Shown here: piece after piece, positions 13,630 to 61,651 of the stretch | How the letters are laid out: every line of letters starts with the position of its first letter | Numbering within the stretch: the first letter of the stretch is position 1 | Assembly: GCA_030426765.1 (NCBI GenBank) | Contig: JAUHXV010000002.1 | Location: 1 to 64,000 of the forward strand | Direction of reading: 5' to 3' | Source of the DNA: Bacteroidia bacterium | GTDB taxonomy: Bacteria; Bacteroidota; Bacteroidia; Chitinophagales; Saprospiraceae | Length of the DNA: 64,000 bases | Program-made: the position numbers and the translations under genes | The notes under the pieces: generated by a model | Databases searched by the model: none | What the model was told of the DNA's origin: nothing | The model's input: only the letters and a program-made list of their open reading frames with translations

Positions 13630-14298
13630 TCAGGCTTTTGGCAACTTTTCCAATAATTTATAAATGCGGATGCGATGGTGTCTTTGCAAGATGACCGGGT
13701 AGAGATTACAGATAAAATTCAGAACGGTCAGCATGCATCCGATGAGGAAGTATTGGCGTACGAACAGGAAAACGGAAACCAGACTGATCATGATCCATGC
13801 GCCAAGATGTCCGAACTCTGATTGTCGTGTTTGATATAGAAAGTGTTGCAGTCCTTCGCGGGTGCCGTCATAATATCGCTTGCGATGCTTCCGCTTGCCC
13901 CAGAATAGAATCACGAGTATGGACTTAAACGTTTCCACGCTCAGGAGATCAAAAAAGTAGTTTAGCCGCTTTGGGTTGACGGCTCTCCAATATCGTTCCG
14001 GCATCACACGGCTGGTTGGGAAGACGAAGCCGGGCATAGCGAAAATACCTGTGATAAAAAGGCAGAGCAAAAAGGCTACGAGGAGCGATTCTCCGAAATT
14101 GAAATCTACCGGACGTGTATATGATAGGTGACGGAGAAGCTCTGCTGTTCGAAACACCAGAAAAACGGCGAAAAGTGTAAATATGATTTTTTTGGCCAGT
14201 TGCACGGGAGTCGGATGCGAAGTGATATATAGAAAAATAAAGTTGGTATGGCTTTCTATTTTAAAAAGAAAGAAAACGTATCCTAAACAGTGTGCCAA
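13630..14298 (-). CDS. Membrane protein, possibly CrtO-like acyltransferase
   Basis: The protein has about four or five hydrophobic segments ('KKIIFTLFAVFLVF', 'SLLVAFLLCLFITGIFAMPG', 'LGAWIMISLVSVFLFVRQYF', 'MLTVLNFICNLYPVILQ'). The C-terminal pattern 'EFGHLGAW ... NFICNLYPVILQRHHRIRIY' resembles the glycosyl-4,4'-diaponeurosporenoate acyltransferase (CrtO) family, small integral membrane acyltransferases. No carotenoid gene is nearby, so the assignment rests on this motif alone. The start is uncertain: TTG at 14298 gives the longest frame, while GTG at 14205 sits directly before the first membrane segment and would also be plausible. Confidence 0.55.
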   Translation of the reverse strand: MAHCLGYVFFLFKIESHTNFIFLYITSHPTPVQLAKKIIFTLFAVFLVFRTAELLRHLSYTRPVDFNFGESLLVAFLLCLFITGIFAMPGFVFPTSRVMPERYWRAVNPKRLNYFFDLLSVETFKSILVILFWGKRKHRKRYYDGTREGLQHFLYQTRQSEFGHLGAWIMISLVSVFLFVRQYFLIGCMLTVLNFICNLYPVILQRHHRIRIYKLLEKLPKA

Positions 14299-14438
14299 GA
14301 TACCAAAATTGCACGCTGCATGCTTCGGCGTAACAAAATAGTTTGAGACCAGCAGGATGCACTTGCCAGATGTTGGGTTTTTTAAGAAACGGTATCAGAA
14401 GGTTGGCATAAACGTGATATTGTGATTAATTTGGAGTA

Positions 14439-15908
14439 GTGAAGCGCAGCAAAATTTTTGGATTACTCCTTGGGCCGGTGTTGTTTGCATCGGTATTATT
14501 GTTTTACCACCCGGCCGGTTTGAGTGACCAAGCCAATGCTGTGCTGGCCTGTACTGTATGGATAGCTGTTTGGTGGATCCTGGAGACTATACCGATCGCC
14601 ATTACCTCGTTACTTCCGGTCATTCTCTTTCCGCTGACGGGTGCTCTTTCTATTGAAGCGACTACGGCTTCTTTTGGGCACAGGTATATTTTTTTATACA
14701 TCGGGGGCTTTATACTGGCTATTGCCATTGAGCGATGGAATCTGCATAAGCGGATTGCCCTGAATATTATCAACCTCATTGGCACTAACATCAAACGCAT
14801 CATTCTGGGCTTTATGGTGGCTACGGCGTTTTTGTCTATGTGGATCACGAATACGGCAACGGCAGTGATGATGCTTCCTGTGGGAATGGCCATCGTCGCT
14901 CAGCTTTCAGACAATCCGCAAACGGACCAAAACGAAAACCTGTTGTTTGGTAAGGCGCTGATGCTAGCCATTGCCTACAGTGCTTCCATTGGCGGAATTG
15001 CAACGCTTATAGGCACACCCCCAAATCTGATTCTGGCGGGTATCGTGCATGAATTATATGGTATCGAAATTACCTTTTTGCAGTGGTTCGTTTTTGGTTT
15101 ACCCCTGTCTGTTTTTCTGCTGTTGGTTTGCTGGCGCTACCTGACCAAATATGCCTTTGCATTTCATCAGAAAGAGTTTCCCGGTGGCAGGGCTGAAATT
15201 AAAAGACAGCTGGTGAGCATAGGAAAAATTACCTATGAAGAGAAGGTATTATTAGTTGTTTTTCTGGGTACGGCTTTTGCCTGGATTTCGCGTTCGTTTT
15301 TAATCAATCGCCTTTTTCCTGTTGTTGACGACACGATGATAGCGATGATTGCCGGTGTGATCTTGTTTTTGATTCCTGCCGGCAAAAGTAAAAAGCGTGC
15401 CCTCATCAATTGGAAGGAAGCGGTGAAATTGCCCTGGGGAGTTATCCTGCTTTTTGGGGGCGGGCTGGCGCTTGCAGAAGGGTTTACCTCAAGTGGGTTG
15501 GCCGAGTGGATTGGGCAACAGCTTTCGCTGATGGAAGGGTTTTCTCTTTTGGTATTGTTACTACTGCTGACCGCAATGGTGAACTTCCTGACAGAAATCA
15601 CTTCCAATCTGGCGACTACTGCCATGTTGCTACCTGTACTGGCGCCTATGGCTTTGGCGATTGGAGTGCATCCGTATATCCTCATGGCGGCTGCCACAAT
15701 AGCGGCCTCTTGTGCGTTTATGTTGCCGGTGGCGACCCCTCCTAATGCTGTTGTGTTTGGTTCCGGATATTTAAAGATCCCGGACATGGCCCGTGCTGGT
15801 GTATGGATGAATATCTTTTCGATTTTCGTGATCACGATAATGGTGTATTATCTCTTGCCGCTTCTTTGGGATTTTGATCCATTTGTATTTCCGGCAGACT
15901 TCAGGTAA
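14439..15908 (+). CDS. DASS/SLC13-family sodium:anion symporter, GTG start
   Basis: A 489-residue integral membrane protein of the divalent anion:Na+ symporter family, which imports dicarboxylates, citrate, sulfate or similar anions. Family marks are 'WWILETIPIAITSLLPVILFP' near the N-terminus, the first hairpin with 'WITNTATAVMMLPVG' (position of the SNT sodium motif), 'SIGGIATLIGTPPNLI', and the second hairpin with 'LTEITSNLATTAMLLPVL'. The end has 'FMLPVATPPNAVVFGSG'. It begins with GTG at 14439. The downstream gene starts 53 bp later with its own promoter-like sequence, so a shared transcript is possible but not required. Confidence 0.92.
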   Translation: MKRSKIFGLLLGPVLFASVLLFYHPAGLSDQANAVLACTVWIAVWWILETIPIAITSLLPVILFPLTGALSIEATTASFGHRYIFLYIGGFILAIAIERWNLHKRIALNIINLIGTNIKRIILGFMVATAFLSMWITNTATAVMMLPVGMAIVAQLSDNPQTDQNENLLFGKALMLAIAYSASIGGIATLIGTPPNLILAGIVHELYGIEITFLQWFVFGLPLSVFLLLVCWRYLTKYAFAFHQKEFPGGRAEIKRQLVSIGKITYEEKVLLVVFLGTAFAWISRSFLINRLFPVVDDTMIAMIAGVILFLIPAGKSKKRALINWKEAVKLPWGVILLFGGGLALAEGFTSSGLAEWIGQQLSLMEGFSLLVLLLLLTAMVNFLTEITSNLATTAMLLPVLAPMALAIGVHPYILMAAATIAASCAFMLPVATPPNAVVFGSGYLKIPDMARAGVWMNIFSIFVITIMVYYLLPLLWDFDPFVFPADFR

Positions 15909-59087: not shown

Positions 59088-59771
59088 TCATTTTATAGCC
59101 GACATGCCTCCATCTACATTAATAATCTGACCTGTGATCCAGTTGCTTTGATCAGTCATCAGAAATTCTGCCAGATTGGCTATATCATTTGGCTGGCCTA
59201 TTCGCTTGAGCGGGTGCCTTTCGGCATTGGCTTTTATTTTTTCATCGGAGGATAGCAAGTTCCCCGCAAGCGTAGTTTGTGTAATAGAGGGAGCGATGCA
59301 ATTAACTCTGATTTTTGGAGCAAACTCCGCTGCCAGGGCTTTTGTTAATCCTTCTATGGCTCCTTTACTACTGGATACGATACTGTGAAAATTGAAACCG
59401 GTTTGAACAGCCACGGTTGAAAAGAGGACGATAGACGGATTTGCTGCTTTTTTTAATGCCGGCAGACATTGCTGAATAACCTTAATCGCACCTCCCACCT
59501 GCAACTTATAGTCGTCTATAAACTCCTGCTCTTTGAGTCGACTAAAAGGCTTTAGCGTAATTGATCCGGGGCAATAGGCCACCCCATCCAGGCTGTCAGG
59601 AATGTTTTGCAATACTTCATTATCCATCACATCATAGTACTGATAGGTTATGGACGGGTGAGACGTTTCGTGCATATAGTATGTACCCATTACAGCATGT
59701 TGTGTGGAAAGCTGCTGAGCCAGTTGTCGGCCGATGCCTGCAGAGGCACCGATGATCAGATAGTTTTTCAT
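59088..59771 (-). CDS. Divergent short-chain dehydrogenase lacking the catalytic Tyr
   Basis: The 227-residue protein has a normal SDR cofactor site ('YLIIGASAGIGRQLAQQLS') and ends 'ITGQIINVDGGMSAI'. The active-site segment reads 'FHSIVSSSKGAIEGLTKALA', so the Y-x-x-x-K tyrosine position is Val while the Lys remains. A subfamily of SDRs with such a site is known and is frequently located near photolyase genes. Its substrate is unknown; it may be a non-classical oxidoreductase or a binding protein. The gene is 141 bp upstream of the photolyase on the same strand. Confidence 0.82.
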   Translation of the reverse strand: MKNYLIIGASAGIGRQLAQQLSTQHAVMGTYYMHETSHPSITYQYYDVMDNEVLQNIPDSLDGVAYCPGSITLKPFSRLKEQEFIDDYKLQVGGAIKVIQQCLPALKKAANPSIVLFSTVAVQTGFNFHSIVSSSKGAIEGLTKALAAEFAPKIRVNCIAPSITQTTLAGNLLSSDEKIKANAERHPLKRIGQPNDIANLAEFLMTDQSNWITGQIINVDGGMSAIK

Positions 59772-60083
59772 AAAAAGTTATTCAGTGTATAGAGATTTGC
59801 GCAGGCGTAATTAAAACCCGTTCGTGGCACTCGACTTTCCGGGAGGAGAGCGTGTCTACATGTCTTTTTTACAACCTTGATAAGGTGAAAACTCCTACTT
59901 ACCAGGTGCCCGCAACCTGGTGGTATCTGGATTACGATCACTTACCAATGTAAACACCCTTCAGTGCAATATGTTTATCCGTTTTTATGGTTCCTGGCCG
60001 AGAGGAATGATTTATCCCTATATTACTTTTTATCCATTAACAGGATAGCTGATAAGACTCTTGGAGGAGTTGAAGCAAGATTA
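59772..60083. other. 312-bp gap without a gene
   Basis: No convincing coding frame was found. One hairpin is present (ACCAGGT at 59901-59907 with ACCTGGT at 59915-59921), without a T-tract, so it is not a clear terminator. It lies downstream of the toxin gene on the minus strand. Confidence 0.4.
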
Positions 60084-60355
60084 TTAATCCGGGAACTTTT
60101 TATAGATATCCTTTCTATCAGCAATTATCAGGAGTCGTAAGGTAGACTTGTTGATACGCTCAATTCCTATTCTGTGACTACCAAGTTTTACGCGATAATA
60201 TTTCCTGAAACCACTTAGTTTTTTATGTGCTTAATCTGATCAATTGATTCAGCTCCTTCCATTTGGAGGATAGCTCCTTCAATTCTTTTAAGAACTGCTT
60301 TATTGTTGATCTTTGATAACCACTGTTCAAATGACTTATCAAACTCGACGGTCAT
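60084..60355 (-). pseudogene. RelE/ParE-superfamily toxin, frame interrupted at a slippery A-run
   Basis: The ATG (60353-60355) overlaps the antitoxin stop by the ATGA arrangement. In frame, translation gives 46 residues ('MTVEFDKSFEQWLSKINNKA ... DQIKHIKN') and stops at TAA (60215-60217). The -1 frame continues without a stop to TAA at 60084-60086 and encodes the rest of a RelE-type toxin ('LSGFRKYYRVKLGSHRIGIE ... RKDIYKKFP'); joined length is 90 residues, normal for the family. The break lies exactly at A-AAA-AAC (60224-60218), in the right phase for -1 ribosomal slippage. The gene is either inactivated by loss of one A or expressed by programmed frameshifting. RelE-type toxins cleave mRNA on the ribosome. 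Confidence 0.8.
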
Positions 60356-60549
60356 CGAGAACCGAGCTTTTTGAAAATGGTTGCCCGGGAGCTTGTTTCA
60401 CCGGTTTTCTCTTTATCCATCAGAGTTCCAAGTAAAATTTCCTCATACTGTTCCTCGTCAATTTGTGTCACATTTCCTCCCAGCTTTTCTGCAAGCGCTT
60501 TGAGGAGTTTGTTGCTTTGATCGTCAGCGTTAATCAGGATTGCGCCCAT
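60352..60549 (-). CDS. Antitoxin of a type II toxin-antitoxin pair
   Basis: The 65-residue protein ('MGAILINADDQSNKLLKALA' followed by 'EKLGGNVTQIDEEQYEEILL') resembles the short acidic antitoxins that precede RelE-like toxins in Bacteroidota. The N-terminal part would bind DNA or dimerise and the C-terminal helix ('SSRATIFKKL') would wrap the toxin. The ATGA overlap with the toxin and a palindrome and -7 box upstream fit an autoregulated operon. The exact antitoxin family is not recognised. Confidence 0.75.
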   Translation of the reverse strand: MGAILINADDQSNKLLKALAEKLGGNVTQIDEEQYEEILLGTLMDKEKTGETSSRATIFKKLGSR

Positions 60550-60567
60550 GTTTTACTTTCTTTTTAC

Positions 60568-60575
60568 CAAAGATA
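60568..60575 (-). promoter_or_regulatory. -7 element of the toxin-antitoxin operon
   Basis: CAAAGATA on the plus strand reads TATCTTTG on the minus strand, an exact TAnnTTTG match 19 bp ahead of the antitoxin start codon. A CAA (60601-60603) could serve as the -33 box, with slightly long spacing. Confidence 0.45.
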
Positions 60576-60610
60576 GGGTTTGGCGGTTATAGTTCCTTTA
60601 CAATAATACA

Positions 60611-60635
60611 AACGCCAATGCTGACGGTTGGCGTT
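60611..60635. promoter_or_regulatory. Inverted repeat upstream of the toxin-antitoxin promoter
   Basis: AACGCCAA (60611-60618) and TTGGCGTT (60628-60635) are perfect 8-bp arms with a 9-nt centre, 35 bp upstream of the -7 box. This is a plausible operator for autorepression by the antitoxin or the complex. Confidence 0.45.
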
Positions 60636-60784
60636 GAAGCCTCTTTTAGGTGGGCTCAACCAGGAAGTGAACTTTATCATTTCGTTTCTTTCCAAAGGAT
60701 ATGTGAAGTTTGTGGGAATGATAGGATATGAATTGTACCTGCATGAATCAACAATACAATACATTCCATATTAGGTGTCCATGT

Positions 60785-61651
60785 TTATGATACCTTGTTT
60801 GCAGTGACGGTTACATCCGGGTCTGTAAGCGTAAGGCTTTGCACCACCTCATTTTGAATATCGAATGTGATCACTACCGAAGGTGCGCCATTATAGGTAA
60901 ACTTGTTTTCGGCGGTTTTGTACAGTGCGCCACCAAACTCACCTATCGGCCCCAGGGAGAGTAATTTTCGCATATTCACGCCAATGGTAAAACCTTCATT
61001 TTCTCCGGCTCCATATTTATAGTCACCGAGATATTTTTGTTGTTCATCGGAACTTACTTCCAGATATTGTTCACCACCGGCATTGCCTAAAGCAGTCAGG
61101 TAGTCAATGGTTAGTTCCAGGTTTTCAACTTCTGTTCTTGTCATTTGATCTTTCATGCGATTGCCGGCAAGTGCGTGGTCCAACAGGCTGATTCCGTGAG
61201 GACCCATGGTAGTCTGAATTCCGGGAGATGACTCGATAATCGACTTAATGCTTTGATAATGTCCCAGCATAGCAAACGTGAACACGGTGGGCCTTGCTCC
61301 TTTGCTCATAAGATACAGGGCGATATCTCTACGACCCACATGAGAAGCGGCACCGATCGCAGATTCGAAATCACCGAATCGCCATTCCCAAACCGATCGG
61401 GAAAGTTCAGAGCGCTTATCCACGAGTTCTTTGACGCGGTCTAAATCAAAATGAGATTTACCTACTACTTCGCTGATGATTTCCGGAGGGAGATTTGGGA
61501 AGTGAGCAGGTACATTTTCGTTTTCTGACTGTTCAAAGACTCCGTTCGCTTTTGGGTTTGTCAATGACATATCAGGAATGGCCAGACCTAAAAGAGTCAG
61601 ACCACTTAGTTTTAGGGAGGTTCTTCGGTTACAAGTAGGAATGTCTTTCAT
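60785..61651 (-). CDS. Tat-signal protein with ankyrin-like repeats
   Basis: The 288-residue protein begins 'MKDIPTCNRRTSLKLSGLTL', a twin-arginine-like signal (NRRTSLKLSG). Residues of about 95-175 look like ankyrin-type helix pairs ('SAIGAASHVGRRDIALYLMS' followed by 'KGARPTVFTFAMLGHYQSIK'). The C-terminal part is beta-rich ('TAENKFTYNGAPSVVITFDI'). It is likely a periplasmic binding or scaffold protein; no partner is identified. Confidence 0.75.
   Translation of the reverse strand: MKDIPTCNRRTSLKLSGLTLLGLAIPDMSLTNPKANGVFEQSENENVPAHFPNLPPEIISEVVGKSHFDLDRVKELVDKRSELSRSVWEWRFGDFESAIGAASHVGRRDIALYLMSKGARPTVFTFAMLGHYQSIKSIIESSPGIQTTMGPHGISLLDHALAGNRMKDQMTRTEVENLELTIDYLTALGNAGGEQYLEVSSDEQQKYLGDYKYGAGENEGFTIGVNMRKLLSLGPIGEFGGALYKTAENKFTYNGAPSVVITFDIQNEVVQSLTLTDPDVTVTANKVS

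Follow-up and report, generated by a model that had tools for sequence, protein, structure and literature searches.

Does a toxin gene that stops at a slippery heptamer and continues one frame back depend on ribosomes that shift there, or has it lost a base? We asked this question of a toxin-antitoxin locus in a 64,000-nucleotide stretch of a Bacteroidia bacterium genome (contig JAUHXV010000002.1, positions 1 to 64,000), the whole of which is called the window here.

Layout and family identity of the split toxin gene

The operon lies on the reverse strand. An intact antitoxin open reading frame of 65 amino acids (60352 to 60549) overlaps the toxin start (60355) through ATGA at 60355-60352. The first part of the toxin, seen both as an open reading frame and in the family profile, occupies 60215 to 60355 and runs in the 0 frame for 46 codons and a TAA. 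At the junction, within a conserved Lys-Lys motif, six A's and a C (60224-60218) are read in the 0 frame as A-AAA-AAC, and TAA (60217-60215) comes directly after, such that the 0 frame ends AAA-AAC-TAA and the heptamer A_AAA_AAC is phased as tandem −1 slippage requires. The second part (60084 to 60224; about residues 45 to 90, located by read-through match and profile) follows in the −1 frame and stops at 60086-60084. The earlier note on this DNA had described the same arrangement, and comparison with the open reading frames and the sequence found its description exact.

A complete toxin is thus not encoded as a single open reading frame: the 0-frame product of 46 residues is missing the C-terminal half of the RelE fold and, with it, the HRKDIY-type end. 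When the 90-residue read-through, a query proposed in the earlier note, was compared with its own genome, it matched in two pieces (residues 1 to 47 and 45 to 90) at a single place; the junction residue was set as the slip envisaged there would give it. Both halves are well preserved and the window copy carries no second lesion, indicating that the toxin has not drifted far. We also considered whether the second half could be translated on its own and rejected this, since no start codon was seen in the interval from the last −1-frame stop before the junction up to the junction itself.

The joined halves cover the whole length of the RelE/ParE profile (read-through 1 to 88, one frame break), which argues that the split gene is not a product of chance. 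A family profile built from an alignment of 25 members matched RelE3 of Methanocaldococcus jannaschii (PDB 3bpq) over 1 to 88 (E = 2.3 × 10−23), with the motifs KK-x-x-G and HRK-x-IY-x-x-FP in common; unlike RelE3, the window copy has a break in its frame. Pfam ParE_toxin (PF05016) was matched by 24 of the 25 family members and NCBIfam RelE_StbE (TIGR02385) by 12 of 25 (E up to 0.1 in both cases), and the window read-through scored 15.9 bits against ParE_toxin, under the curated Pfam cutoff of 23 bits. Homologues of the window antitoxin lie directly upstream of an intact toxin in L003 (58% over 50 amino acids) and of a broken Mucilaginibacter toxin in L026 (46%). Toxin and small antitoxin gene share one operon in the window, as expected of RelE/ParE members. 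Given these family matches and the antitoxin homologues beside the toxins of relatives, the locus is by descent a predicted type II toxin-antitoxin operon, in agreement with the earlier assignment of a RelE-like toxin, and its toxin is by descent a RelE/ParE family member, which we call a putative toxin only.

The toxin-antitoxin pair occupies part of a gap of roughly 1 kb (59771-60785), with genes for a short-chain dehydrogenase (59088-59771) and an ankyrin-like protein (60785-61651) on either side. The same gap contains a 66-amino-acid open reading frame at 60564-60764.

Frame breaks across the toxin family

Relatives of the toxin were sought in about 1,400 genomes, nearly all from Bacteroidota and some drawn repeatedly, and in one collection of genome contigs. 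Matches were aligned with a purpose-written, frameshift-aware profile aligner whose penalties were our own choice. Among 154 full-length copies, 105 were intact, 36 carried one or more frameshifts, and 13 were interrupted by a stop only; because fragmentary matches were fetched deliberately, the broken share, about one in three copies, is a rough figure. Single-base losses predominated among the 43 frame events (32, versus 5 single-base gains), although events placed by the aligner within the first dozen codons could reflect start-site artefacts. The six codons of the Lys-Lys-Leu motif (profile positions 43 to 48) held 8 of the 43 events, compared to about three expected under a uniform distribution (P = 0.008), marking this conserved motif as a recurrent deletion site. 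Among the 118 frameshift-free copies, the Lys-Lys stretch carried 36% of homopolymer runs of at least 6. Its share of frame events was lower than this share of long runs, suggesting that run length alone is insufficient to account for all breaks.

In a poorly resolved tree (88 columns) of these 154 copies, the broken state required 30 label changes, compared to a mean of 32.7 after shuffling. This scatter suggests that broken copies arose many separate times. No relatives of the toxin were found in plasmid records or in the viral-contig scan. The operon was absent from the one same-genus genome examined, where the flanking synteny was not kept; that genome does carry a homologue of the neighboring short-chain dehydrogenase.

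Programmed −1 sites are expected to be conserved within their cluster (PMC3711429). The junction heptamers of copies broken at the Lys-Lys motif, taken directly from sequence, were A_AAA_AAC in the window, A_AAA_AAT in L197, C_AAA_AAC in L110, C_AAA_AAT in L111, and T_AAA_AAA followed by TGA in L202. A_AAA_AAC is therefore not conserved among them, and with 105 of 154 homologues intact, the site lacks the conservation of a programmed one. The earlier note had named this very outcome, intact homologues without a conserved A-AAA-AAC, among the observations that would refute its proposal. An in-phase A_AAA_AAA or A_AAA_AAG (A_AAA_AAR) is already present in 27 of the 105 intact genes because the motif itself encodes Lys-Lys. 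When one A was removed in silico from the motif run of 83 intact relatives, an in-phase heptamer appeared near the junction in 24 and a 0-frame stop within four codons in 47. The heptamer and stop of the window gene are thus the picture that decay is expected to yield in a sizeable share of cases, and the family base rate provides a useful control whenever A-rich heptamers in toxin genes are taken as programmed frameshifts.

Explanations for the split gene

We consider it probable that the locus holds a RelE/ParE-type toxin inactivated by a recent one-nucleotide loss in an A-run, beside an intact antitoxin. The ancestral type II operon would have contained a complete toxin in which the A-run encoded the conserved Lys-Lys motif. 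One nucleotide would then have been lost recently within that run, leaving a truncated 46-residue product, an inactive toxin, and an intact antitoxin gene. This reading, which the earlier note had offered as the simple one, is supported by the frequency of frameshifts and stops in the family, the excess of losses over gains, the concentration of events in the Lys-Lys stretch, the scatter of broken copies over the tree, the variable heptamers, the rate at which in-phase heptamers occur in intact genes or would follow from one lost A, the lack of a downstream fold, and normal coding density. Against it stand the preserved halves without a second lesion and the intact parent state, which is not visible in the one same-genus genome. 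A decayed toxin with its antitoxin still intact would be ordinary.

The more unusual proposal was that the toxin is made through programmed −1 frameshifting at A_AAA_AAC, which would keep toxin levels low with the 0-frame TAA as the default end. The local pattern X_XXY_YYZ, in phase and directly before a 0-frame stop, is indeed present at 60224-60218, as it is in programmed −1 genes that use A_AAA_AAN (bacterial insertion sequences and dnaX), and in one insertion-sequence cluster, shifting at A_AAA_AAC has been proven (PMC4066793). The good preservation of both toxin halves also fits this proposal, as do two Mucilaginibacter relatives with a −1 break in a common codon and a conserved frame downstream (see below). 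Unlike those programmed genes, however, the window site is not conserved in its family, most homologues being intact, and no stimulator was found: RNA downstream of the junction folded no better than shuffled sequences (z scores of +0.9 and +1.3), and downstream folding is the measure by which stimulators were judged here. The earlier note had likewise seen neither a well-placed Shine-Dalgarno sequence nor a hairpin. In Escherichia coli, the AAC-to-AAA shift is poorly tolerated by prokaryotic ribosomes, and unstimulated motifs exceed a background of 0.055% by a factor of about ten at most (PMC4066793), making the window heptamer a weak shifter by that standard. Searches of open-access literature gave, among the papers listed, no account of programmed frameshifting in a type II toxin. 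Taken together, these data make programmed frameshifting in the window gene quite unlikely.

An error of sequencing or assembly within the A-run, with the organism's own gene intact, would produce the same one-base loss in a homopolymer; the genome is a draft of 147 contigs, and intact copies are the family majority. Nevertheless, coding density in the window is normal (86% in open reading frames of at least 100 amino acids, with the indel rate judged on the window alone) and its open reading frames are long, arguing that indel errors are not widespread. Short-read platforms usually get runs of 6 to 7 A's right, which counts against an error where such a platform was used. We regard error as unlikely and infer both that a mutation broke the frame and that the resulting toxin is inactive. 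Phase variation, in which a changing A-run length would switch the toxin on and off, draws on the status of the A-run as a local hot spot of one-base loss. Six A's are short for a phase-variable tract, however, and a switch requires gains as well as losses, the former being rare in the family (5 versus 32); the run is moreover seen as a single allele in one assembly. This explanation appears very improbable. For programmed frameshifting and phase variation alike, the heptamer itself is the one positive indication in the window gene.

Stretches of 0.8 to 0.9 kb without an ATG-start open reading frame of at least 100 amino acids occur elsewhere in the window, at 513-1433, 1828-2606, and 14037-14814.

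Broken copies in Mucilaginibacter and Pedobacter-type relatives

Compared to the window gene, a stronger candidate for recoding is a pair of diverged Mucilaginibacter RelE-type toxins, one from a Mucilaginibacter flavus isolate (L026:3001-3266) and one from a metagenome-assembled genome (MAG) (L028:3001-3266). The two are 70% identical and form a sister pair, with support (94/77) slightly below the starred level. Both have lost one base in a shared codon, a −1 break with which the DNA alignment agrees. The 39 codons that follow, taken in the −1 frame, show 22 synonymous versus 6 non-synonymous differences between the two, a bias with P of about 10−10 under neutral drift after an ancestral break. 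This bias suggests either an ancestral break with the second frame still translated or two recent breaks in the same codon. By a rough estimate, chance alone would give 0.09 to 0.16 sister pairs with coincident breaks in the tree, a number too large to settle the choice, and for this reason we do not claim the case as recoding. Both copies carry an in-phase T_TTA_AAA, a heptamer of the pyrimidine-then-AAR type, which shifts comparatively well in E. coli, but no RNA structure stood out. The pair could be a real case of recoding, judging by its pattern of substitution; if so, the toxin would be dosed through ribosome slippage. No further copies of this subgroup were found in the 150 Mucilaginibacter genomes searched.

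These copies bear on a broader reading, which we consider improbable: a Bacteroidota subgroup of RelE/ParE toxins expressed only via −1 recoding near the Lys-Lys motif, with the window gene as an outlying member. The two Mucilaginibacter copies would be its best case and two Pedobacter-type copies the next. The Mucilaginibacter lead does not carry over to the window gene: the heptamer differs, the break position differs, and where the tree is resolved, the window gene does not group with the pair. The aligner placed the window break at profile position 44, where it was forced upstream by the 0-frame stop, versus 48 in Mucilaginibacter; an unconstrained DNA alignment gave the missing column one common position across all five copies, the window's included, so the difference in break position is itself not firm. 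For the window gene, decay remains the preferred reading.

By identity (60%), the relatives of L112, which is the same copy as L026, lie near those of the Pedobacter-type copies L196 and L029. These two Pedobacter-type copies (L196 near 401-657; L029 from 2897 onward) have a common −1 break at profile position 52, and L029 carries two further frame lesions.
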